Shown one piece after another: positions 614-27,098 of a stretch of 27,634 nucleotides of DNA; the first letter of the stretch is position 1, and each line of letters starts with the position of its first letter. The stretch comes from a virus. The notes under the pieces were generated by a model, which saw only the letters and a program-made list of their open reading frames with translations, had not been told where the DNA came from and made no database searches. Both the position numbers and the translations under genes were made by a program. Location of the stretch: IMG/VR virus record IMGVR_UViG_3300044633_000269, positions 1-27,634 of that record. One strand, given 5' to 3'.

Positions 614-2391
614 TGAATAAACAAATTTTAATCAAGGCAGTTATTCTATTTGCTGTAGTATTTGCTGCGGTAACATTTTATAATAGAATGACTAAGCCAA
701 TAATGCAACAATATCAACCATCTTATACTAGATTTTTGAATATTGTTAAACACGATGGAATCTTTAAGGTTAGGATTCAAGGAAGTAGTCTACATGCTAT
801 TGCAAAAACTGGCGAAGAGTTTGTAGTTAATACTCCAGATAATGATCCACAATTAATTAATGATTTATTATCACATAATGTAGATGTTGTAGTTTTAGAT
901 CCTCCAAAGAGAAGTATTTGGATGGATATTTTAATTAACTCAATTCCTATTGTATTATTAATTTGTGCATGGATTTGGTTTGCTAGGAGACAGGCTGGTA
1001 GTAGATTAGGATCTATTGGAAATTCCAAAGCTAAACTTCTCGAAAAAGATGAACACAATGAAGTTACCTTTGCCGATGTTGCTGGTTGTGATGAAGCAAA
1101 AGATGAACTACGAGAAGTTATTGATTTTCTTAGAAATCCCGAAAAATTTAATAAGCTTGGCGGTAAAGTCCCGAAAGGTGTTCTCTTGACAGGAGATCCC
1201 GGAACTGGTAAAACATTGCTATCCAAAGCGGTTGCTCATGAAGCTGGTGTACCGTTTTATTATTGTTCCGGTTCCGACTTTGTTGAAATGTTTGTTGGTG
1301 TGGGGTCTTCTAGAGTTCGTGATATGTTTGTCGAATTGAAGAAAAATGAATCTGCTATTTTATTCATTGACGAGATTGATGCTGTCGGTAAATCAAGAAG
1401 TTCTGGTATGGTTTCAAATGACGAACGCGACCAAACATTAAATGCATTGCTGGTAGAAATGGATGGATTTGGTACTAATTCTAGGATTATTGTTATTGCC
1501 GCAACAAATCGTGCGGATATCTTAGATAAGGCATTATTAAGACCCGGAAGATTTGATCGTCAAATCGCGGTTGGATTACCGGATTTGAATGGCAGAACTC
1601 AAATTCTTGAAGTTCATACAAAGAATATTCCTATGTCCGAGGATGTGGATTTGCATAGTATTGCTAGAGGAACATCTGGCTTCTCTGGGGCAGAATTAGC
1701 CAATCTTGTAAATGAAGCTACTATTTTCGCTTCTAGAGAAGATTCTGATGTTGTTTCGAAACATAATTTTGAAAAAGCCAAGGATAAGATTTTGATGGGC
1801 GTTGAAAGAAAGACATTTACAATGTCAGAAGATGAACGAAAACTTACAGCAATACATGAAGCTGGACACGCTGTTGTAGGATATTTTTCTAAAGAACATG
1901 ATCCGATTTATAAAGTTTCTATCATTCCTCGCGGCAGAGCACTTGGTATTACTATGTTCCTACCAGAAAGAGATTCGGTTTCAGTTAGTAAAATAAAATT
2001 GGAAAGTCAAATTGCTTCTTTATATGGAGGTAGGATTGCAGAGGAAATTTATGCTGGATTTGATGGTGTTACTACTGGTGCTTCGAATGATATTGAACGT
2101 GCAACTTCGCTTGCTACTAAAATGGTAACTGAATGGGGAATGAGTAAAAAAGTCCCGCCAATTAAATTTGTAGAAATGAATGGATTAACTAATTCCTCGC
2201 AATTAAAATCTGGAATGGAAGAAATCACTACTTTGGTACAAAAAGAAATTCAAGTTTTGATTAACAAGAATTATAAAGCCGCCGAAAGAATTTTAAAGAA
2301 AAATTGGAATAAAGTTGAACAAATGGCTGAACTATTAATGGAACGCGAAACCATTGATGAAGTTCAAATTGAAAATATCATGAAAGGATAG
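613..2391 (+). CDS. ftsH: FtsH-type membrane AAA+ zinc metalloprotease
   Basis: This 592-aa protein has the full FtsH architecture. There are two membrane segments (about residues 5-23 and 106-123) with a small domain between them. The AAA+ module has Walker A GDPGTGKT (194-201), pore motif FVGVG (227-231), Walker B ILFIDE (249-254) and the second region of homology ending in RPGRFD (310-315). The zinc protease has HEAGH (415-419) and a likely third ligand Asp493 in SNDIERAT. FtsH degrades membrane proteins and short-lived regulators at the inner membrane. E. coli FtsH is 644 aa, and this one lacks the long tail. It lies between genes 55 and 47 in the same transcription unit (1-nt overlap with 55), so it is probably expressed with the replication genes. 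No catalytic residue is missing. The phage substrate is unknown. Confidence 0.95.
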   Translation: MNKQILIKAVILFAVVFAAVTFYNRMTKPIMQQYQPSYTRFLNIVKHDGIFKVRIQGSSLHAIAKTGEEFVVNTPDNDPQLINDLLSHNVDVVVLDPPKRSIWMDILINSIPIVLLICAWIWFARRQAGSRLGSIGNSKAKLLEKDEHNEVTFADVAGCDEAKDELREVIDFLRNPEKFNKLGGKVPKGVLLTGDPGTGKTLLSKAVAHEAGVPFYYCSGSDFVEMFVGVGSSRVRDMFVELKKNESAILFIDEIDAVGKSRSSGMVSNDERDQTLNALLVEMDGFGTNSRIIVIAATNRADILDKALLRPGRFDRQIAVGLPDLNGRTQILEVHTKNIPMSEDVDLHSIARGTSGFSGAELANLVNEATIFASREDSDVVSKHNFEKAKDKILMGVERKTFTMSEDERKLTAIHEAGHAVVGYFSKEHDPIYKVSIIPRGRALGITMFLPERDSVSVSKIKLESQIASLYGGRIAEEIYAGFDGVTTGASNDIERATSLATKMVTEWGMSKKVPPIKFVEMNGLTNSSQLKSGMEEITTLVQKEIQVLINKNYKAAERILKKNWNKVEQMAELLMERETIDEVQIENIMKG

Positions 2392-2420
2392 TTGACAAAT
2401 AACATGAAAATTGCTATACT
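2392..2420 (+). promoter_or_regulatory. Possible internal sigma70 promoter over the start of gene 47
   Basis: TTGACA (2392-2397), a 17-nt spacer and TATACT (2415-2420) form a near-consensus promoter. The predicted start, near 2427, lies inside gene 47. It could therefore serve only gene 46 and later genes. In AT-rich DNA this may be chance. Confidence 0.35.
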
Positions 2421-3483
2421 TGGAGATTCACACTTTTTGGCTAGATCTGGTTCAAAGTCATTCAATGAATACTTTGAAAAATTTTATACCAATGTATTTT
2501 TCCCGTATTTATTGCATAATAATATAAAAACTGTCGTACAACTCGGAGATATCTTTGACAACAGAAAACAAGCCCATTTGCAAGGACTCTCCGAATGCAA
2601 AAAATATTTCTTTGATAAGTTAGAAGAATACGATATTACATTATATACTTTGGTTGGAAATCATGATAGTTTTTATAGAGATACTATCAATGTAAATTCT
2701 CAAAATTTGTTATTGAAAGAATACAGAAATATTATCTCTATTGAAAAACCAGATTATGTTGAATTGGCTCCAAATATAAAACCATTATTTCTTCCTTGGA
2801 TTTGTAAAGATAATTATGAAGAGTCTATCCGTAAGATAGGAAAGAGTTCATCCGATATTTGTTTCGGTCACTTGGAACTGCGTGACTTCGCTATGTATAA
2901 AGGATTTATCTCTGACGAAGGCATGGATTGGAAGTTATTCGAAAGATTTGAATTTGTTTTTACTGGTCATTATCATCATCGTTCTACTAGAGGTAATATA
3001 TATTATTTGGGAACCCCGTATGAATTGACATGGCAAGATGATGCTGATCCAAAAGGATTTCATGTATTTAATTTCGAAACAAGAGATTTAGATTTTGTAC
3101 AGAATCCTTATAAAATGTTTAATAAGATCTTTTATGATGATCTATTAAACGAGGATAGTATAAAAGAACAGATAGAACAATCTAAACTCGATACATATGC
3201 AAGTTCCTACATTAAAGTGGTTGTTAAGAATAAACAAAATCCATATCTATTTGATTTATTCATTGATGCTTTATATAAGATTAATCCCCTAGATCTTGTT
3301 ATAATTGAGGATACTGCTGATGTTCTTAACGAAGAAATCAATGATATTGATGAGACAGAAGACACACTTACTATTTTATCCAGATATATAGATAATGTAA
3401 AAACAAAAGAGTTAGATGCTAATAAATTAAAAAATATATTAAGTTCGCTTTATGACGAAGCGATGTCCCTTGAATCAATTTAG
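2404..3483 (+). CDS. 47: Recombination endonuclease subunit gp47 (SbcD/Mre11-like)
   Basis: This is a calcineurin-like phosphoesterase of about 359 aa. Metal-binding motifs are in family order: GDSH (7-10), GDIFD (48-52), GNHD (85-88), FGHLE (154-158) and TGHYHH (187-192). T4 gp47 pairs with gp46 as the Mre11/Rad50-type nuclease that resects DNA ends for recombination-dependent replication and host DNA breakdown. The ATG at 2404 puts MKIAILGDSH where T4 gp47 begins (MKILNLGDWH). A TTG at 2392 would add four residues. The AGGA at 2385-2388 is 15 nt from the ATG but only 3 nt from the TTG, so the start is not certain. Gene 46 follows after 9 nt. Confidence 0.93.
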   Translation: MKIAILGDSHFLARSGSKSFNEYFEKFYTNVFFPYLLHNNIKTVVQLGDIFDNRKQAHLQGLSECKKYFFDKLEEYDITLYTLVGNHDSFYRDTINVNSQNLLLKEYRNIISIEKPDYVELAPNIKPLFLPWICKDNYEESIRKIGKSSSDICFGHLELRDFAMYKGFISDEGMDWKLFERFEFVFTGHYHHRSTRGNIYYLGTPYELTWQDDADPKGFHVFNFETRDLDFVQNPYKMFNKIFYDDLLNEDSIKEQIEQSKLDTYASSYIKVVVKNKQNPYLFDLFIDALYKINPLDLVIIEDTADVLNEEINDIDETEDTLTILSRYIDNVKTKELDANKLKNILSSLYDEAMSLESI

Positions 3484-3492
3484 TAGTATATT

Positions 3493-5211
3493 ATGATAGT
3501 ATTTTCTCGCGTTTCCATGCGTAACTTCTTTTCTGTAGGAAATTCTCCTATAGAAATAAATCTCAATTCTCATAAGAAGACTTTATCTGTTGGTGTCAAT
3601 GGATCTGGGAAATCTTCTTGTATTCTGGATTCTATTTGCTTTGCTTTATATGGAAAACCCTTTCGTAAAGCAAATAAACCAAATCTATTGAATTCTAAGA
3701 ATAAAGCAAATATGTTAGTCACAATTGAATTCTCTATTGGTAATAGAGAGTATAAGGTTGTGAGAGGAATGAAACCAACAGTATTTGAAATATATTGTAA
3801 TGATGTTCTTGTTAATCAAGATGCTTCTTCTAAAGATTATCAAGAATATCTAGAGAAGTATATTCTGAAAGTCAATTACAAGTCTTTCATTAATGTAGTA
3901 ATTTTGGGGTCTGCTAGATATAATCCTTTTATGCAGATGCCAGCGGCAGATAGAAGATCTATTATAGAAGAATTGTTAGATATTCAAATATTCTCTACAA
4001 TGAATGTTTTGGTCAAAGATAAACTTTCTAAATTGAAAGAAGAAAGTAACGATCTAAAATATAATATAGAATTGACAACAGAAAAGATCGAATTGCAGAA
4101 ACAGAATCTCAAAGAACATAAAGAACATACACAAGAAGAAATTAAAAGGAAGCAGGAAGAAATAGCTAAATCCAATGAACAAATTACTTCTCTACAAAAA
4201 GATATAGATTCTATTCAAAAACATATAAATGTTTTACAAGTACAAATTATAGATAAAACTTCTATAGAAACCAAAAGAAGCAAAATGATTTCTATAGAAT
4301 CTAAACTTGAGACTAATTTGAGTAAATTGAGAAGAGAATGTGATTTCTTTGAAAAAAATCATAGTTGCCCTACATGTAGGCAATCTATTGATGAAGAGTT
4401 TAAATCGACGCAGATTGAAGTGAATAATAAAAAGAAATTAGAATTGAAAACCGGGCTTTCCAAATTAACTGAAGAAGCAACAAAACTAGAAGAAAGATTG
4501 GATGAGATAAGATTAATTAACAAAAATATACAAGATCACAATTCAGAGATCGTAAAATTAAATGCCTCCATCTCGGCAATTCAAAATTATATTCAAAAAG
4601 AGTTAAAAGCCATTTCTGAAATATCTAATAATGCGATTGATGAAAATGATGGGAAATTGACTATATTAACTACGGAGTTAGATAAGCATATATCAAACCA
4701 AGATGATTTAACAAATACTAAAAAGTATTATGATTTCTCTGCCGTCCTATTAAAAGATGGAGGAATAAAGACAAGAATTGTTAAGCAATATATTCCTGTA
4801 ATGAATAAGTTAATCAATGCTTACCTTTCGCAGATGAATTTCTTTGTTAATTTCAATATCAACGAAAATTTCGAAGAAGTTATTAAAAGTAGGCATAGGG
4901 ATGAATTTAAATACGAGAATTTTTCTGAGGGGGAAAAATTAAGAATTGATTTGGCAATTCTGTTTACATTTAGACAAATTGCTAAAATGAAAAATTCAGT
5001 GAATACTAATTTATTGATTTTTGACGAGACATTGGATTCTTCTTTGGACTTGAATGGAATTGATCAATTTATGGATTTGATTGAATCGTTAGATGTTAAT
5101 ACTAATGTCATTGTGATTTCGCATAAAGGAGACACTCTGGGCGATAAATTTGATAGAACATTGAAGTTTCAGAAGAAAAAAGACTTTACAAAACTAATAG
5201 AACTAAGGTAA
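3493..5211 (+). CDS. 46: Recombination ATPase gp46 (SbcC/Rad50-like)
   Basis: This 572-aa SMC-type ATPase matches T4 gp46 (560 aa). Walker A is GVNGSGKS near residues 34-41. A long coiled coil (about 170-400) is interrupted by a CPTC zinc hook at 292-295. The ABC signature FSEGEK is at 477-482 and Walker B LLIFDE at 507-512. A stretch after Walker A (ALYGKPFRKA) is nearly identical to T4. With gp47 it forms the end-processing complex for recombination-primed replication. The start matches the T4 N-terminal pattern (RV..RNF.SVG), but there is almost no Shine-Dalgarno sequence before it, so translation may be coupled to gene 47, which stops 9 nt upstream. Confidence 0.95.
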   Translation: MIVFSRVSMRNFFSVGNSPIEINLNSHKKTLSVGVNGSGKSSCILDSICFALYGKPFRKANKPNLLNSKNKANMLVTIEFSIGNREYKVVRGMKPTVFEIYCNDVLVNQDASSKDYQEYLEKYILKVNYKSFINVVILGSARYNPFMQMPAADRRSIIEELLDIQIFSTMNVLVKDKLSKLKEESNDLKYNIELTTEKIELQKQNLKEHKEHTQEEIKRKQEEIAKSNEQITSLQKDIDSIQKHINVLQVQIIDKTSIETKRSKMISIESKLETNLSKLRRECDFFEKNHSCPTCRQSIDEEFKSTQIEVNNKKKLELKTGLSKLTEEATKLEERLDEIRLINKNIQDHNSEIVKLNASISAIQNYIQKELKAISEISNNAIDENDGKLTILTTELDKHISNQDDLTNTKKYYDFSAVLLKDGGIKTRIVKQYIPVMNKLINAYLSQMNFFVNFNINENFEEVIKSRHRDEFKYENFSEGEKLRIDLAILFTFRQIAKMKNSVNTNLLIFDETLDSSLDLNGIDQFMDLIESLDVNTNVIVISHKGDTLGDKFDRTLKFQKKKDFTKLIELR

Positions 5212-16145: not shown

Positions 16146-16160
16146 TTAAAAGAGGTTATT

Positions 16161-17081
16161 ATGAGTGTATTAGATAAATTGAAGAAGAATTCCACTATTA
16201 AAGAATCTTCTATCCTTGCCAAATCGAAATTCTTTGCGGATAAGGATTTTGTTACTACATCAATTCCTGTATTAAACATTGCATTTTCTGCTAGAATCGA
16301 TGGTGGATTCCACTCCGGGTTTACCATGTGGGCTGGAGTTTCCAAGATGTTCAAGACTGGATTTTCCCTCTTGATGGCAAAGGCATATATGGATAAATAT
16401 CCAGATGCTGTATTAATGTTTTATGATTCCGAATTTGGATCGCCGCAATCATATTTCAAATCTTTTGGGATTGATTTGAATCGTGTTTTCCACGTTCCTA
16501 TTGTAAATGTGGAAGAACTGAAGTTTGATATTATGCAGCAAATGAATAACATTGAACGCGGAGATAAGATTATTATTCTTATCGATTCTATTGGTAATCT
16601 TGCCTCCAAGAAAGAGGTGGATGATGCATTGGAAGGAAAGTCTGCTGCTGATATGACTCGTGCAAAACAATTAAAGAGTCTGTTCCGTATGGTTACTCCA
16701 CATTTGACTCTAAAGGATATTCCTTTGGTAGCAGTAAATCATACATACAAAACTATGGAATTGTATGCAAAGGATATTGTTGGTGGTGGTTGTTTGGTTG
16801 CAGGAACTAAAATCCAACTTTCGAACGATACATTTAAAAATATTGAAGAAATTTCTGTGGGAGACTTTGTTAAAACTTTGATTGGCGATAAAGAAGTTAC
16901 GGCAACATGGAATCCTGATACATTGGATGATGGTGAACCAGAATGTTTTGAGATAGAGTTTGAGGATGGATACAAAGTTATTTGTTCTGATAGACACAAA
17001 TTCTTAATTGGTGGGGAAATTAATGGGGAATGGATTGAAGCAAAAGATCTTAAAGTAGGAATGGAATCGGCAATATATTAA
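16161..17081 (+). CDS. uvsX: UvsX recombinase, N-terminal part fused to N-half of a split intein
   Basis: Residues 1-210 are the N-terminal part of a RecA-like UvsX. They include Walker A AGVSKMFKT (58-66), catalytic Glu92 in YDSEFG and Walker B IIILIDS (137-143), ending at KDIVGGG. From Cys211 the sequence is an intein N-half of 96 aa: CLVAGTKIQL (block A), an ISVGDFV strand and CSDRHKF (block B, with the conserved His). It stops at KVGMESAIY just where an endonuclease domain normally begins in full inteins. Protein splicing in trans with the product of the gene at 17273 would join GGG to TGSYY and restore a recombinase of about 363 aa (T4 UvsX 391). The ATG follows AGAGG by 7 nt. UvsX catalyses strand exchange for recombination-dependent replication. 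Confidence 0.93.
   Translation: MSVLDKLKKNSTIKESSILAKSKFFADKDFVTTSIPVLNIAFSARIDGGFHSGFTMWAGVSKMFKTGFSLLMAKAYMDKYPDAVLMFYDSEFGSPQSYFKSFGIDLNRVFHVPIVNVEELKFDIMQQMNNIERGDKIIILIDSIGNLASKKEVDDALEGKSAADMTRAKQLKSLFRMVTPHLTLKDIPLVAVNHTYKTMELYAKDIVGGGCLVAGTKIQLSNDTFKNIEEISVGDFVKTLIGDKEVTATWNPDTLDDGEPECFEIEFEDGYKVICSDRHKFLIGGEINGEWIEAKDLKVGMESAIY
16791..17078 (+). mobile_element. Split intein N-half (96 aa)
   Basis: Block A starts with the nucleophile Cys directly after GGG. Block B is VICSDRHKFL, where Ser replaces the usual Thr but the His remains. The insertion point is the highly conserved DNA-binding L2 loop of the RecA fold, a typical intein position. Confidence 0.92.
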
Positions 17082-17283
17082 GATTCAGAATTTATATACA
17101 AAAGAAATTGTAAGAGTTTCTAAAAATGATGAATTGTGTAATAGTCCTGATTGGGTTAATCCTAGAAAATTGAATCCAGAACCAAAGTATAAAGGTGAGT
17201 ATTGTGATGTAGTAACAACAGCTTCTAATTTGAAAAGATGGCATAATGAAAATTGTAAGAGGAAACTAAATTATGAAAATTAA
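17059..17283 (+). pseudogene. Out-of-frame remnant of a homing-endonuclease-type module
   Basis: Between the intein halves, the frame one base ahead of the upstream gene is open throughout (stop 17281-17283). It has no ATG. Its product includes NLYTKEIVRVSKNDE, a tryptophan (NSPDWVN), then YCDVV and SNLKRWHNENCKRK. The C...RWH.(D/E)NCK pattern is a Cys/His module often found at the C-termini of phage homing endonucleases. The reading frame runs 11 nt past the ATG of the downstream half. I infer a decayed endonuclease region of a formerly continuous intein. It may instead be expressed by +1 frameshifting, but I see no clear slippery site. Confidence 0.55.
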
Positions 17284-17416
17284 ATCAGTTAAATGGTCTA
17301 ATAAATGGACTAAAACTATTAAATCAATTAAGTCGGTTGGAAGACATAAAGTTTATGATATTTCAGTTAAAGACGCTGAACATTATGTGCTTGAAAATAA
17401 TGTGGTAACACACAAC
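17273..17416 (+). mobile_element. Split intein C-half (48 aa)
   Basis: It ends in the canonical His-Asn followed by Thr, and carries block F (KVYDISVKDAEHYVL). With the N-half, the total of 144 aa is the size of a minimal splicing domain without an endonuclease. Confidence 0.92.
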
Positions 17417-17878
17417 ACGGGGAGTTATTATTCGGCAGACAATATTTATATCCTTGGTCGCCAACAAGAAAAGGATGGTACAGAATTGTCTGGATATAAC
17501 TTCATTATTAATGTAGAAAAATCCAGGTATGTTAGAGAAAAGTCCAAAATTCCAATTAATATTTCTTTTGATAATGGGGTTAGTAAATATTCTGGTTTGA
17601 TTGATATTGCTTTGGAACTTGGGTTTGTTATGAAACCATCTAATGGATGGTATTCCAGAGTTAATAAAGAAACTGGAGAAGTTGAAGATAAAAAATATAG
17701 ATTAAAAGAAACCAATACAAAAGAGTTTTGGGAACCAATTTTGAATTCTGAAAGGTTTAAGAATGACATTTATGAACGCTACGCTATTTCTTCTCATGCT
17801 ATCATTTCTGATAATGATATTGAAGAAGAGTTTAACAAAAATCAAGATAGTGAATATGGAGAAGAAGAAGATGATTAA
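17273..17878 (+). CDS. uvsX: UvsX recombinase, C-terminal part preceded by C-half of a split intein
   Basis: The first 48 residues are an intein C-half: a basic stretch (MKIKSVKWSNKWTKTIKSIK), then block F VYDISVKDAEHYVLEN and block G NNVVTHN. Residue +1 is Thr49, the nucleophile of the C-extein. From there TGSYYSADNIYILGRQQ begins the C-terminal UvsX region, with GYNFIINVEKSRYV and GWYSRVNK, as in T4. The acidic end (SEYGEEEDD) is like the UvsX tail. The gene has its own Shine-Dalgarno sequence (AAGAGGA, 17258-17264) and ATG, so it is translated separately. Its end overlaps the next gene by 8 nt. Without trans-splicing neither half should be an active recombinase. Confidence 0.92.
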   Translation: MKIKSVKWSNKWTKTIKSIKSVGRHKVYDISVKDAEHYVLENNVVTHNTGSYYSADNIYILGRQQEKDGTELSGYNFIINVEKSRYVREKSKIPINISFDNGVSKYSGLIDIALELGFVMKPSNGWYSRVNKETGEVEDKKYRLKETNTKEFWEPILNSERFKNDIYERYAISSHAIISDNDIEEEFNKNQDSEYGEEEDD

Positions 17879-18167
17879 TAAAGAATATTTGGAAGGAGTG
17901 GATTTCAAATTTGTTATTCCAGAAGAGGTGTCTGATAATATTGATATAAAATTACTAGCTGGAGAATATGCTGGAGTTGTCTATCGATATGGTGGTGTTT
18001 CGATTGATGAAGATCCAAATAATCCAGTGCTATCTTTTAATTATGATATTATAGATAATAATGGTAATGATGATTTGGAGAGCGAAGATGATTTTAAAAA
18101 TCATATTGGAAATATTTTAGTTTCATTGATTGAACAAAGGCTGAAATCAGAAACCGAGGAGGTTTGA
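17871..18167 (+). CDS. Small acidic protein of unknown function (98 aa)
   Basis: A 98-aa acidic protein between uvsX and gene 41, without a family name I can give. It has FKFVIPEEV, then a strand-rich YAGVVYRYGGVSIDEDPNN, LSFNYDIID, an Asp/Asn/Glu-rich loop and an amphipathic C-terminal helix (IGNILVSLIEQRLK). The ATG at 17871 is chosen because GGAG lies 8 nt upstream. It overlaps the uvsX stop by 8 nt, and its own stop overlaps the gene 41 ATG by one base. Tight coupling with recombinase and helicase suggests a replication accessory role, which is inference only. Confidence 0.7.
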   Translation: MINKEYLEGVDFKFVIPEEVSDNIDIKLLAGEYAGVVYRYGGVSIDEDPNNPVLSFNYDIIDNNGNDDLESEDDFKNHIGNILVSLIEQRLKSETEEV

Positions 18168-22906: not shown

Positions 22907-23827
22907 ATGTACGTTTCTAATAATTTTGTTGAGTTGAATGATACTATTGCCGCATGGCTAAAAGAAGATAAATCATTTTCTATTGTTCGTATAGATAATA
23001 CTGCAGGATATGTTTTGGATTGTATGGATAAAGGAACTCTTCCTGTCCATCAATTCTTCAATGAGAATACACTAATTGAAGCTGGAATTAATCCCAGATC
23101 AATGGATTATGTATATTCGTATGTATATCCGGAAACAATTAAAGTGATGAAAAATTCGGATATCCTTGGATTTGTTGATATTTCTGGCGACATTTCGCGC
23201 AATCAGAAATTCCTATCGCAATTTTCAAATATACCTATTTTTTATTCTGGGCATACGTATCATGTATTAGATCCTGGATTATTAGTTGGCGAAGCAGAAG
23301 TTGGATATGTCGAAAATCCTTGGACCCAATATCTGAAAGGAAAAAAAGTTTTGGTAATTTCTTCTCATTATGAATCCATAATGAGTCAGTGGGAAAAGAT
23401 AGACTTGATTTGGGGAGATAGAAAAGATAAAATAGTTCCATTCGATTTGGTTGGTTGTATTCGTTCTCCTTATCATCCTATGTTAGATGATAGGCAATAT
23501 CAAGGTTGTAATACTTTTGAAAAGTTGTTGGATTATATTAAACGAGAAATTGACAAATATGATTATGATGTTTTGTTAACTTCGGTGTCTCATCAATCTC
23601 CTTTTTACGCAGACCATGCGAAACAACAAGGAAAAGTGGGAATTCAAACGGGAGGAATATTACAATTATATTTTGGAATTAAAGGAAATAGATGGACTCA
23701 AAATGTTGGATATGCAAAATGGCAAGAAATGTTTAATGAACATTGGATATATCCATTAGAAATTGATGCTCCACAACGAAGAAAAGAATTCTCTTTTCTA
23801 GAAACTACATTTGCTTATTGGGGATAA
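22907..23827 (+). CDS. Putative polysaccharide-synthesis glycosyltransferase (GT-D-like)
   Basis: This 306-aa protein starts with a helix and SFSIVRIDNTAGYVL, comparable to the RxGDGE opening of GT-D-fold enzymes but with Asp-Asn in place of the GDGE acids. The C-terminal part, DVLLTSVSHQSP then GKVGIQTGGILQLYFGIKG and NRW, is a pattern seen in proteins of bacterial polysaccharide loci. That similarity is recalled from pattern, so the family is tentative. The ATG at 22907 follows the GT10 stop by 1 nt. A TTG at 22895 is an alternative. No membrane segment is visible. Confidence 0.5.
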   Translation: MYVSNNFVELNDTIAAWLKEDKSFSIVRIDNTAGYVLDCMDKGTLPVHQFFNENTLIEAGINPRSMDYVYSYVYPETIKVMKNSDILGFVDISGDISRNQKFLSQFSNIPIFYSGHTYHVLDPGLLVGEAEVGYVENPWTQYLKGKKVLVISSHYESIMSQWEKIDLIWGDRKDKIVPFDLVGCIRSPYHPMLDDRQYQGCNTFEKLLDYIKREIDKYDYDVLLTSVSHQSPFYADHAKQQGKVGIQTGGILQLYFGIKGNRWTQNVGYAKWQEMFNEHWIYPLEIDAPQRRKEFSFLETTFAYWG

Positions 23828-23832
23828 TTATT

Positions 23833-25155
23833 ATGGAACATTTGGATTCGATTCTGTCGCAAGTTGAAGCGTTTATTAGGAATAAAAACGCTTCAAGAAA
23901 TTGGGTAGCTGGGGAAAATTATGTTAATTATGCTGGTCCGTATTTTGATCATAATGAATATGTTGCAGCAGTAAAAACGTTATTGGCTGGGTGGTTAGTA
24001 ATGGGTGAAGATTCTCTAAAGTTTGAGAGAAAATTCCCTAAATTTTTTGGTAAAAAATATGGTATTCTAACTAATAGTGGTTCTAGTTCAAATTTATTAA
24101 TGATGAATGCTTTGGCATCCAAGAGTTATTATGGATTTCCAAAAGGAACAAAAGTATTAATGCCTATTGCTGGATTTCCCACGACACTAAATCCAACATT
24201 ACAAATGGGCTTTGATCCAGTATTTTTGGATATTGAATTAGATACTCTCAATTTGGATTTGACTAAAGCAGAAGATTTAATAAAGAAACATGATGTAAAA
24301 GTAATCACATTTGCACATGTATTGGGAAATCCTCCTAACATGGATCAAGTAATGGATTTAGTTAAGAAGTATAACCTTGTTCTTCTTGAAGATTGTTGCG
24401 ATGCTTTAGGTTCTACATATAATGGTGAACCATTAGGAAGTTTTGGAGAAATGGCATCATGTAGTTTTTATCCCGCTCATCATATTACTATGGGAGAAGG
24501 AGGATTTGTTGCTTCCAAATCTGCTGAAATCGAAGTTATTTTAAGAAGTCTTAGAGAATGGGGGAGAGGATGTTATTGTGTTGGTCCAAAGGCAAACACG
24601 CTTAAATGCGGAACTTGTAAATCTCGTTTTAAAAATTGGATTCCTGCTCTTCCTGATGAGACTTTTGATCACAAATATGTTTATGATGAAATTGGTTACA
24701 ACTTAAAGCCCATTGAACTTCAAGCATCGATGGGGTTACATCAACTTGAAAAGCTTGATGAGATTACAACTCTTCGCAAAAGAAATTATAATCTTTTATT
24801 TGATATATATAAAAAGTATGAAGAATATTTTCATCTACCAAGGGCGACAAATGGATCAGATCCTAGTTGGTTTGCATTCCCTCTTACAATTAAAAAGGAT
24901 GCCCCTTTTAAACGGTTTGATTATGTGAATTTTTTGGAAGATAAAAAGATCCAGACTAGACCATATTTTGCTGGTAATATTATGTTACAACCTGCATATT
25001 CGCATTTAATGGATTTGGAAACTGCTAGAAATGAATATCCGAATGCAACTTTCTCCACAACAAATACATTATTTCATGGAACTAGTCCTGTTATAACTCC
25101 AGAACAGATTAAGTATATTGGAATTTGTGTCGATGAATTTATGAGTAAACTATGA
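23833..25155 (+). CDS. rfbH: RfbH-like NDP-4-keto-6-deoxyhexose 3-dehydratase (Fe-S, PMP)
   Basis: This 440-aa DegT/AHBA-fold protein has His (216) where aminotransferases have the PLP-binding Lys (SFYPAHHITMGEGG). This is the hallmark of the dehydratases RfbH (E1) and ColD. It also has a cysteine cluster (CYC, 247-249, and KCGTC, 258-262) like the 2Fe-2S site of RfbH. ColD lacks this cluster and is shorter. RfbH removes the C3 hydroxyl of CDP-4-keto-6-deoxyglucose with pyridoxamine phosphate and a partner reductase, giving 3,6-dideoxyhexoses of O-antigens. No reductase (RfbI/E3) gene is seen here, so electrons may come from a host partner. GGGGAT precedes the ATG. The next gene overlaps by 4 nt. 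Confidence 0.88.
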   Translation: MEHLDSILSQVEAFIRNKNASRNWVAGENYVNYAGPYFDHNEYVAAVKTLLAGWLVMGEDSLKFERKFPKFFGKKYGILTNSGSSSNLLMMNALASKSYYGFPKGTKVLMPIAGFPTTLNPTLQMGFDPVFLDIELDTLNLDLTKAEDLIKKHDVKVITFAHVLGNPPNMDQVMDLVKKYNLVLLEDCCDALGSTYNGEPLGSFGEMASCSFYPAHHITMGEGGFVASKSAEIEVILRSLREWGRGCYCVGPKANTLKCGTCKSRFKNWIPALPDETFDHKYVYDEIGYNLKPIELQASMGLHQLEKLDEITTLRKRNYNLLFDIYKKYEEYFHLPRATNGSDPSWFAFPLTIKKDAPFKRFDYVNFLEDKKIQTRPYFAGNIMLQPAYSHLMDLETARNEYPNATFSTTNTLFHGTSPVITPEQIKYIGICVDEFMSKL

Positions 25156-25781
25156 ACGTTAAACAATTAATTAAATTTGAGACGGAAGTTGCTAGACGAT
25201 TTAATAATAAAGAAATACGATCTCCCGTCCATTTATATCACGGAAACGAAAAACAAATTCTCAAAGTTTTTGAAAAAATTGATATACATAATGATTGGGT
25301 TTGTTGTACTTGGAGAAATCATTACCAATGCCTATTGAAAGGTGTTCCGGAAAATGTTTTATTGGATAAAATTATTGCTGGAAAAAGTATGGTAATGAAT
25401 CTTGCTGAGTATAAGATTGTTTCTTCTTCTATCGTCGGAGGCATTCCGTCTATTGCAGTTGGTATTGCGGAATCTATTTTAAGAAATAAAGAATCTGGAT
25501 CTAGAGTTTGGTGTTGGGTAGGGGATATGAGTGCTGAAACGGGCGCTTTTCATGAAGCATATAAGTATTCTGTAAATCATGAATTACCAATTACATTTGT
25601 GGTTGAAAATAATAAACTTTCTGTAACTACTCCAACGGAAAAGATTTGGGGGAGAACTGTACCTTGGTATCTTCCGAAAAATTACTCTAGAAAATGGTAC
25701 GAATCTTCCAATTTGATTTATTATGAATATAGTAATAAAGTATATCCCCATGCCGGGGCTGGTGTGAGGGTACAATTCTAA
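25152..25781 (+). CDS. ThDP-binding subunit, E1-alpha/transketolase-N-like (short)
   Basis: This 209-aa protein resembles the alpha subunit of 2-oxo acid dehydrogenase E1 and the N-domain of transketolase. It has WRNHYQCLLKG (54-64), GGIPSIAVGIAESIL (96-110) and the ThDP diphosphate/Mg motif GDMSAETGAFHEA...VVENN (124-154; the GD and NN ends are present). Typical E1-alpha proteins exceed 320 aa, so this is close to the bare cofactor domain. The beta-like partner is the next gene, overlapping by one base. Placed after an RfbH gene, it may transfer a two-carbon unit to a ketosugar rather than serve central metabolism. That role is inference. Confidence 0.75.
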   Translation: MNVKQLIKFETEVARRFNNKEIRSPVHLYHGNEKQILKVFEKIDIHNDWVCCTWRNHYQCLLKGVPENVLLDKIIAGKSMVMNLAEYKIVSSSIVGGIPSIAVGIAESILRNKESGSRVWCWVGDMSAETGAFHEAYKYSVNHELPITFVVENNKLSVTTPTEKIWGRTVPWYLPKNYSRKWYESSNLIYYEYSNKVYPHAGAGVRVQF

Positions 25782-26323
25782 TGAACGATCAATTAATATA
25801 CAAAAATGAATTATCTTCTGCTATGGAATGGCTTTCCAAGCAACCGGATACAATTTTTATTGGACAGGCGATAGAATATGAAGGTACTGGATTGTACGAC
25901 ACTATGAATCTTGTTCCTCCCGAAAGAAAAATGGAATTCCCAATTGCAGAAAATTTCCAAGTTGGGTTTTCTATTGGAATGGCTTTAAATGGTTTTATTC
26001 CGGTATCTATCTTCCCAAGATGGAATTTTCTATTATGTGCTGCAGATCAGTTAGTAAATCATTTGGATAAAATGGTTTCTATGTCTGATATGGGATATGT
26101 ACCAAAGGTAATTATTAGAGTTGCAGTCGGTTCTGAAACCCCTATTAATCCTCAAGATCAACACAAAGGTAATTTTTCAGAATCTTTTAGAAAAATGTTG
26201 CAAAATACGGATGTTTTGGAACTAGATTCCCCCGATAAAATACTACCATCATATAAACTTGCATATACTAGAACTGATCGAAAGAATACTATACTAGTAG
26301 AATTTTCCGATTATGGAAAATAA
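25781..26323 (+). CDS. ThDP-enzyme pyrimidine-binding subunit, E1-beta-like (short)
   Basis: This 180-aa partner of the preceding gene contains the Pyr domain of E1-beta/transketolase enzymes. Key parts are TIFIGQAIEYEGTG, KMEFPIAENFQVGFSIGMAL (Glu57, the residue that activates the ThDP aminopyrimidine ring), PVSIFPRWNFLL and ADQLVNHLDK. An aromatic GNFSESFRKML segment follows. Normal E1-beta is near 325 aa, and the C-terminal transketolase domain is missing. Genes overlap on both sides (1 nt upstream, 11 nt downstream), so the pair and the following SDR are tightly coupled. The active site would form at the interface of the two proteins. Confidence 0.75.
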   Translation: MNDQLIYKNELSSAMEWLSKQPDTIFIGQAIEYEGTGLYDTMNLVPPERKMEFPIAENFQVGFSIGMALNGFIPVSIFPRWNFLLCAADQLVNHLDKMVSMSDMGYVPKVIIRVAVGSETPINPQDQHKGNFSESFRKMLQNTDVLELDSPDKILPSYKLAYTRTDRKNTILVEFSDYGK

Positions 26324-27098
26324 AATACTTGTTTTAGGGGCTTCTGGATTTATTGGAAAGTTTCTGTCTAAAAACTTAGAAGCTATTCCAGTATCCAGAA
26401 AAGATGTAGACTTGGAAGATTTTAACGAAGTTAGAAGTTTATTAAAAATTCATAAACCAGATGTTATTATAAATTGCGCTTCTAATACAGATACCAAAAT
26501 GATGTTTAATGCAAAAGCATATCATCAGAATTTGGTAATGTTTAATAATTTATATCTACTAAGAGAAGAATTTGGGAAATTAATTAATTTCGGATCTGGA
26601 GCGGAGTTTGATAGGAGATTTCATATCAATAATTTAAAAGAGGAGAGCATATTTGCGTGTTCTCCTTTTGATCATTATGGGATGAGTAAAAATATTATAT
26701 CCCGTATGATGTTTCCTATAGATAATTTTTATAATTTACGGTTGTTTGGATGCTTCCATGATACTGAAAATAATAGTAAACTATTCAAAAAAATTCTGAC
26801 TAAAGAACCTATAAAAATAGATAACAAATATTTTGATTATATTTCATTGGATGATGTTCTTACTGTGGTTGAGAACTATATAGATAAAGAATGTTTTTAT
26901 AAAGATTTGAATCTTGTTTATACTACTAAATTGCTATTGAGTGAAGTTGTTGACGAATTTATAAAAATACATAATTTACCTAATAAAGTAATTATAAAAA
27001 ATGTAGGTCTTAATTATACTGGTAATGGTTCTAGATTGAGTTCTTTAAAATTGAACTTAAAAGGTATGAATCAAGGACTAATTGATTATAAAATATAA
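26313..27098 (+). CDS. SDR-family NAD(P)-dependent epimerase/reductase (RmlD-like)
   Basis: This 261-aa extended-SDR protein has the nucleotide-binding GASGFIG (9-15), VIINCAS (51-57), an FGSG strand and the catalytic YGMSK (122-126). The short C-terminal domain fits 4-ketoreductases of the RmlD or CDP-abequose-synthase type rather than 4,6-dehydratases, which are longer. Together with RfbH it could reduce the 4-keto group of a dideoxysugar, or of its branched derivative. The substrate is not determinable. It overlaps the preceding gene by 11 nt. The ATG is used because it starts directly with the Rossmann strand. Confidence 0.85.
   Translation: MENKILVLGASGFIGKFLSKNLEAIPVSRKDVDLEDFNEVRSLLKIHKPDVIINCASNTDTKMMFNAKAYHQNLVMFNNLYLLREEFGKLINFGSGAEFDRRFHINNLKEESIFACSPFDHYGMSKNIISRMMFPIDNFYNLRLFGCFHDTENNSKLFKKILTKEPIKIDNKYFDYISLDDVLTVVENYIDKECFYKDLNLVYTTKLLLSEVVDEFIKIHNLPNKVIIKNVGLNYTGNGSRLSSLKLNLKGMNQGLIDYKI

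Follow-up and report, generated by a model that had tools for sequence, protein, structure and literature searches.

The broken uvsX gene

The window analysed here is a 27,634-base virus record (IMGVR_UViG_3300044633_000269) that carries T4-like replication genes. Its uvsX gene, encoding the UvsX recombinase, is broken into two genes which bear the two halves of an intein. The features of the region are listed below with their lengths in nucleotides (nt) or amino acids (aa) and with the open reading frames (ORFs) and matches on which they rest; L numbers (L002, L008 and so on) designate related loci from other virus records that were compared with the window.

16149-16157, forward strand: Shine-Dalgarno-like site AAAGAGGTT of gene 1 (duplex energy -6.5 kcal/mol; 3 nt separate it from the ATG)
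16161-17081, forward strand: gene 1, 306 aa, encoding the UvsX N-part and the intein N-half (ORF; PHROG 8337, E 5.3e-84; PHROG 97, E 4.5e-64)
16161-16790, forward strand: N-extein, UvsX residues 1-210, C-terminal ...DIVGGG (98% protein identity with the intein-free allele L016/L017)
16791-17078, forward strand: intein N-half, 96 aa, with Cys1 and block B SDRH (intein profile and alignment)
17080-17283, forward strand: HNH-type homing-endonuclease remnant, a C-terminal zinc-finger-like tail of 67 codons plus stop (blastp; "zinc finger" by eye)
17086-17091, forward strand: CAGAAT, presumed deletion scar (comparison with L015)
17256-17264, forward strand: Shine-Dalgarno-like site TAAGAGGAA of gene 2 (-6.0 kcal/mol; 8 nt separate it from the ATG)
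17273-17878, forward strand: gene 2, 201 aa, encoding the intein C-half and the UvsX C-part (PHROG 18112, E 5.5e-74; Pfam T4_UVSX_C, E 8.8e-22)
17273-17416, forward strand: intein C-half, 48 aa, with block F VYDISV... and C-terminal VVTHN (alignment)
17417-17875, forward strand: C-extein, UvsX residues 211-363, with Thr as the +1 residue (93% protein identity with the empty allele L017)

At the junctions, VGGG is followed by CLVAG... on the N side and ...VVTHN by TGSYYS on the C side, and the spliced product would be 363 aa long. UvsX homology runs along both parts (profile search with PHROG 97, E 4.5e-64 for the N-part and 2.9e-15 for the C-part). Since UvsX is encoded in two genes, each with its own start and ribosome site, the evidence supports the view that a continuous UvsX would need trans-splicing. 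The preliminary description of this DNA had proposed a two-gene uvsX with these coordinates, halves of 96 and 48 aa, these junctions and a 363-aa product, all of which is borne out by the ORFs and the alignment, and its claim of a separate start and ribosome site for each gene agrees with the Shine-Dalgarno-like sites AAAGAGGTT and TAAGAGGAA. In the profile search that it had suggested as a check, both halves match Pfam Intein_splicing (E 1.1e-4 and 4.9e-4), and both stay under the curated Pfam cut-off, each half being a part of the profile. Among relatives with a contiguous intein, L032 passes this cut-off (38.5 bits against 35.8) and L050, at 35.6, falls just short. The window C-half is longer than those of the aligned relatives (48 aa versus 32-39 aa), the extra length coming from about 13 residues inserted close to its N-terminus. 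This insert, around KWSNKWTKT within 17273-17416, is absent from the other aligned C-halves.

Of the loci compared, 80 are the best 80 of 596 confirmed relatives, so that counts among them are not frequencies. Across 89 sources (88 loci and the window), 35 carry a split intein, 2 a contiguous one, and 48 are intein-free with one open UvsX frame, while 4 are clipped by a contig end. Each of the 48 intein-free loci is an exact empty site, with the N- and C-extein joined directly in a single open frame. The N-halves over all loci amount to 39 distinct split and 3 distinct contiguous ones; Cys1 and the [ST]xxH motif are each conserved in 42/42 distinct N-halves, and the 32 distinct complete C-junctions all read HN followed by Thr (30) or Ser (2). 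The window itself has the residues of a class 1 split intein, namely C, SDRH, HN and T. Both genes have been under selection, as judged from the ratio of non-synonymous to synonymous substitution rates (dN/dS). The exteins, 98% and 93% identical in protein sequence to those of the intein-free L017, give 0.021 (dS 1.1) and 0.074 (dS 0.7), respectively. The intein halves also look constrained: of 12 comparisons with six relatives, nine gave 0.07-0.19 and three had an undefined dS. All these values are pairwise Nei-Gojobori estimates, which are rough at such dS. Finally, in a structure-sequence search the family profile finds the gp41-1 intein, whose host gene is a helicase, at E 3e-8, ranked below two repeat-driven Tako8 entries that were set aside because their hits are spread over seven weak repeat matches. 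The best Foldseek matches of a model of the contiguous L050 intein are likewise inteins or intein-like domains, with gp41-1 first (E 7.9e-5).

The gap between the halves and its expression signals

Read in the third forward frame, the gap forms part of a stretch that stays open from 17059 to 17280. From position 17080 onwards this frame is 52-69% identical to the endonuclease tails of L004, L008, L013, L015 and L024 (blastp, E 9e-21 to 8e-30) and weakly matches PHROG 655, 27406 and 12324 (E 0.007-0.027). It aligns to residues 168-237 alone of the relatives' open frames, which are 230-242 residues long. By this alignment everything before about residue 168 is gone from the window, the HNH catalytic region included, and the remnant frame contains no ATG. 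Moreover, the remnant reads KGEYC at a place where the same five relatives have (H/Y/F)KCxxC, the first Cys of the finger having been replaced by Gly. It is because the catalytic part is gone, the ATG missing and the Cys lost that the frame is called decayed, and not because of its substitution rate. No full homing-endonuclease gene lies between the halves in the window, where the 67-codon tail is what is left. In the three relatives scanned (L004, L008 and L024), the genes occupying the same gap match PHROG 655 (homing endonuclease, E 8e-51 to 2e-58), PHROG 12434 (HNH endonuclease, E 4e-7 to 6e-12) and Pfam NUMOD3, and the Pfam HNH models score under the cut-off in L008 and L024 and are absent in L004. 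Judged by this homology, the gap is the decayed tail of a homing-endonuclease gene and not a spacer; the "empty spacer" reading was ruled out on the same ground. The preliminary description had overlooked the tail.

How most of the gene may have been lost is suggested by L015, where the hexamer CAGAAT occurs twice, 542 base pairs (bp) apart: one copy stands directly past the stop codon of the intein N-half, the other where the endonuclease tail begins. In the window a single CAGAAT joins both contexts. The simplest route to the window gap would be a deletion between the two copies.

The ribosome site of gene 2 lies within what remains of the endonuclease. TAAGAGGAA falls inside the Cys-Lys-Arg-Lys codons of the remnant and is likely to serve as the site for gene 2, which could explain why the tail has been retained. 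To compare relatives, 26 split loci were scanned closely, that is, the 35 split ones minus nine near-copies (L002, L003, L006, L007, L009, L010, L011, L018 and L042). Seventeen of them have an endonuclease gene, broken in two cases, and nine have a short remnant or none. The best site is TAAGAGGAA or a close word (TAAAAGGAA, TGTAAGGAA) in the corresponding tail codons in 10 of the 26, namely the window, L004, L008, L012, L013, L015, L020, L026, L041 and L086.

A further signal may have disappeared together with the endonuclease. The T4 late-promoter word, TATAAATA, occurs in the stretch from the N-half stop codon to the following gene in 13 of 30 inteins taken as endonuclease-bearing, three of which (L097, L149 and L158) gave no endonuclease ATG; its general density in those loci is 0.116 per kb. 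The ten loci that lack a full endonuclease gene, including the window, all have no such word near the break. Several T4 homing endonucleases are described as being controlled by a late promoter together with an RNA hairpin over the ribosome site (passages of PMC2988022), and the window seems to have lost such an endonuclease control region too.

Mobility, decay and competing explanations

The intein and its endonuclease appear to move as one block. L008, which carries the block, differs from L031, which has none, by an exact insert, with flank identities of 100% over 2297 bp and 99.2% over 2400 bp; between L013 (with the block) and L037 (without it) these identities are 98.9% over 4629 bp and 99.5% over 992 bp. 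Such near-identical flanks with and without the block point to its recent gain or loss, and the exact presence/absence pattern fits homing; metagenomic contigs may be chimeric. The endonuclease types found in the gap also vary, from HNH-type to Seg-like GIY-YIG in L083 and others that are GIY-YIG by eye. Intein and extein trees, which took in 15 of the 48 intein-free loci, disagree with each other, and well-supported branches number 5 of 30 in the intein tree and 22 of 43 in the extein tree. L004, L012 and L013 fall together in the intein tree (95/91), but with the extein data this grouping is rejected in the approximately unbiased (AU) test (p 1e-49), the groups submitted to this test having been picked after the tree was seen. 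For the contiguous inteins of L032 and L050, a single origin is compatible with the AU test (p 0.14).

More elaborate fractures were seen in some of the relatives. On L092 (900-4865, a contig shared with L128), two split inteins, each at a site of its own, divide UvsX into three genes; the one in the middle encodes in turn the C-half of one intein, 11 UvsX residues (SMFPTAVISGG) and the N-half of a second intein, and both gaps hold a gene that is homing-endonuclease-like by eye. L142 has the first of these inteins alone. The neighbouring gp41-like helicase on L128 (7767-8402 and 9198-10319) also seems, by eye, to be broken by intein pieces: its N-part ends in a short Cys-starting tail, a later ORF has an intein C-end, and Pfam gives a single weak intein match close to the end of the contig. 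Adjoining the fractured uvsX of L012, a gp43-like DNA polymerase (1481-3984) is broken by an apparent second split intein (Pfam intein matches), with a gene between the halves that is Vsr-like by eye.

Decay appears to have gone further in certain relatives than in the window. L145 and L146 carry a one-gene, contiguous intein. The intein DNA of L145 (3050-4520) is identical to that of the split L014 (2386-3858) at 304/306 and 104/105 positions, with exteins 74.8% and 71.5% identical, and near-identical inteins in diverged exteins point to a recent transfer of the intein between phages. L145 lacks 30 bp that are present between the halves of L014, including the stop codon and endonuclease remnants, and the remaining letters of the earlier ribosome site and start codon now translate in frame as Glu-Glu-Ile-Met. 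The 36-bp gap of L014 opens like that of the endonuclease-bearing L008 and L015 (TAAGATTCAGAAT), and its 3' end resembles their tail codons; on account of this resemblance, deletion is simpler than a fresh gain. The reverse order of events, with the L145 state preceding that of L014, is possible. The linker of L032 shows ...LQNTMKI..., which could be a fossil of the same kind, and that of L050 shows nothing clear. With 67 codons left in the window, a 36-bp gap in L014 and one-gene inteins in L145 and L146, it is on balance likely that the split is a reversible scar of the endonuclease gene, which opens the intein and then decays until a small deletion re-fuses the halves, the window being part-way along this course.

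The following course of events would account for the locus. A split intein sits at the GG/TG stretch of the recombinase, and the two genes would be translated separately. The intein halves would then fold together, Cys1 would attack, the N-part would be passed to Thr+1 and the Asn would cyclise, yielding the 363-aa UvsX. A free-standing endonuclease gene, which in close relatives lies between the halves, may have made the split or may keep it open, and it would carry the intein along with itself, as a single block, into uvsX genes that are still intact. In the window lineage most of that gene would have been deleted, probably between the CAGAAT copies, while its 3' tail stays. We consider it very probable that the window carries a fractured uvsX with a trans-spliced split intein, that the split is linked to an endonuclease, and that the endonuclease was later mostly deleted in the window lineage.

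Several points weigh against this account or limit it. Trans-splicing itself is deduced from the conservation of residues, from the selection on both genes and from the exactness of the empty sites. The pairwise extein dN/dS spans both branches and not the fractured branch alone, and that of the remnant, 0.14-0.22 against four relatives (the fifth being undefined), is no higher than in intact tails (0.16-0.35). In 16 of the 26 split loci the best ribosome site is another word or lies elsewhere, so that a site in the tail codons is no rule of the family. The L050 intein model is modest (predicted local distance difference score, pLDDT, 67.6), the alignment behind it put N-half ends into C-half columns, and its Foldseek TM-scores are low, about 0.37.

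The two proteins might instead stay unspliced and work as two subunits. Such a state has precedents in T4-like phages, in the split NrdA of Aeh1 and the split gp43 of Aeromonas phage 25 (passages of PMC2988022), and the splicing of the window halves is itself read from their sequence. However, both intein halves are present, with catalytic residues invariant in 42/42 and 32/32 cases and with dN/dS of 0.07-0.19 in 9/12 comparisons with defined dS; without selection for splicing they would decay, which makes a two-subunit enzyme very improbable. If the break were a fault of sequencing or assembly, or if a one-gene intein were being read across two frameshifts, the gap could be open in the third frame, as is found here, but two frame changes within 200 bp would be required. 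The relatives, moreover, share the break with a full endonuclease gene, which accounts for the third frame, and three records are identical base for base: L002 and L003 match the window at 1740/1740 bases over 16161-17900. L002 is 99.94% identical to the window over 8918 bases and is therefore a separate record and no mere copy. The preliminary description had named one continuous frame across the gap as the observation that would overturn the split; these other records agree with the break over all 1740 bases. Unless all of them share one fault, their agreement rules out a frameshift or assembly error, to which we give next to no credence.

Decay of the gap endonuclease might also suggest that the whole locus is a decayed pseudogene in a phage that uses another recombinase. 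Against this stand the extein dN/dS values of 0.021 and 0.074 versus L017, and no second uvsX was found in two records of the same phage (89,959 and 10,345 bases, both possibly incomplete); a pseudogene is thus highly improbable. As for the role of splicing, the preliminary description had seen in it a regulated checkpoint on recombination-dependent replication. We found no support for this proposal and nothing that points to regulation. The presence or absence of the block in near-identical phages (L008/L031 and L013/L037), together with its linkage to an endonuclease, fits a selfish element, and a checkpoint appears about as improbable as the two-subunit enzyme.

Relation to known fractured genes

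Split inteins are widely used tools, and their natural origin and loss are still open questions. Here, one gene family spans the intact gene, the intein with its endonuclease, the intein with a remnant and the fused mini-intein. With related phages standing at several of these stages, the order of events becomes testable. UvsX, in addition, takes part in the very recombination that copies such elements (passages of PMC2988022).

Elsewhere in the window, a 592-aa ORF (613-2391) is by eye an FtsH-like AAA+ zinc metalloprotease; the abstract of a 2019 paper speaks of FtsH-like and TilS proteins as previously unreported in phages (PMC6892783). By eye, too, positions 23818-27098 hold a row of sugar or cofactor metabolism genes, comprising an aminotransferase-like gene, two transketolase-/dehydrogenase-like halves in separate genes and a reductase/epimerase-like ORF.

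The preliminary description had suggested that the uvsX case may be new, and had proposed a search for uvsX genes broken at the same codon. Such genes were found in other phages, and the suggestion of novelty is not supported. With the gene-1 protein as query, 2320 records of a phage collection gave some match and 53 covered at least 80% of the query; 25 of the latter carry the intein N-half in uvsX, each of them also with a UvsX match and the same break at the same codon, and they represent 19 isolates once six RefSeq copies are removed. Like the window, Proteus phages Pm5461 and PM2, Shewanella phage Thanatos-1, Yersinia phage TG1, Pseudomonas phage PspYZU05, Vibrio phages VmeM-32 and EniLVp02, Escherichia phage HY03 and others have two uvsX genes with a homologous split intein at the same codon. 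The break also occurs in phages whose listed hosts are laboratory strains of E. coli K-12, ELT1 and SYGD1 among them, so that trans-splicing of UvsX is directly testable.

In all eight phage records that were opened, two uvsX pieces flank an endonuclease gene, which is broken in TG1 and VmeM-32. This gene is of the GIY-YIG type (by annotation, Pfam or eye), whereas the window has an HNH-type tail. Six of the eight records label both pieces as recombination, repair or uvsX proteins; the second piece in HY03 and both in VmeM-32 are "hypothetical". None of the opened annotation tables calls an intein, and VmeM-32 has a "HintC" note. A word search of the openly licensed literature, covering a few passages and with preprints and Dassa et al. 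2009 outside its scope, returned no description of a uvsX intein. The uvsX passages of PMC2988022, PMC4177764 and PMC5587285 mention none, and the word "uvsx" is absent from PMC10448857, PMC12707363 and PMC11923092. The series of decay and apparent re-fusion and the three-piece UvsX look new, no literature search having been aimed at these two.

Fractured phage DNA-metabolism genes with a split intein and a free-standing homing endonuclease in between were reportedly described by Dassa and colleagues in 2009. The window has the same arrangement, the differences being that the gene is uvsX and that the endonuclease has been cut down to its tail. The gp41-1 split intein (PDB 6qaz) is the best intein match by sequence profile and the best Foldseek match, at about 23% identity to the L050 intein. 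As in the family described here, an HNH endonuclease lies between the halves of a putative split intein in phage MIJ3, where the gene is PolB, and the PolB mini-intein of Salicola phage SCTP-2, a contiguous relative of that of MIJ3, parallels the contiguous uvsX relatives (passages of PMC6892783). For PolB, these passages set out no order of events. The PolB split inteins of the T4-like phages Aes123 and CP21 also interrupt a T4-like replication gene, but they are cysteine-less, sit in another gene and have had their splicing studied by experiment (parts of PMC11923092 and PMC12707363). According to the same parts of these two papers, the natural split site is usually the position of the endonuclease. 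In T4, SegA cuts in uvsX, but segA sits between uvsX and beta-gt and not within uvsX, and I-TevI is controlled through a late promoter together with an RNA hairpin that covers its ribosome site (passages of PMC2988022). The arrangement found here belongs to the known "fractured gene" kind, of which the window is a further member.
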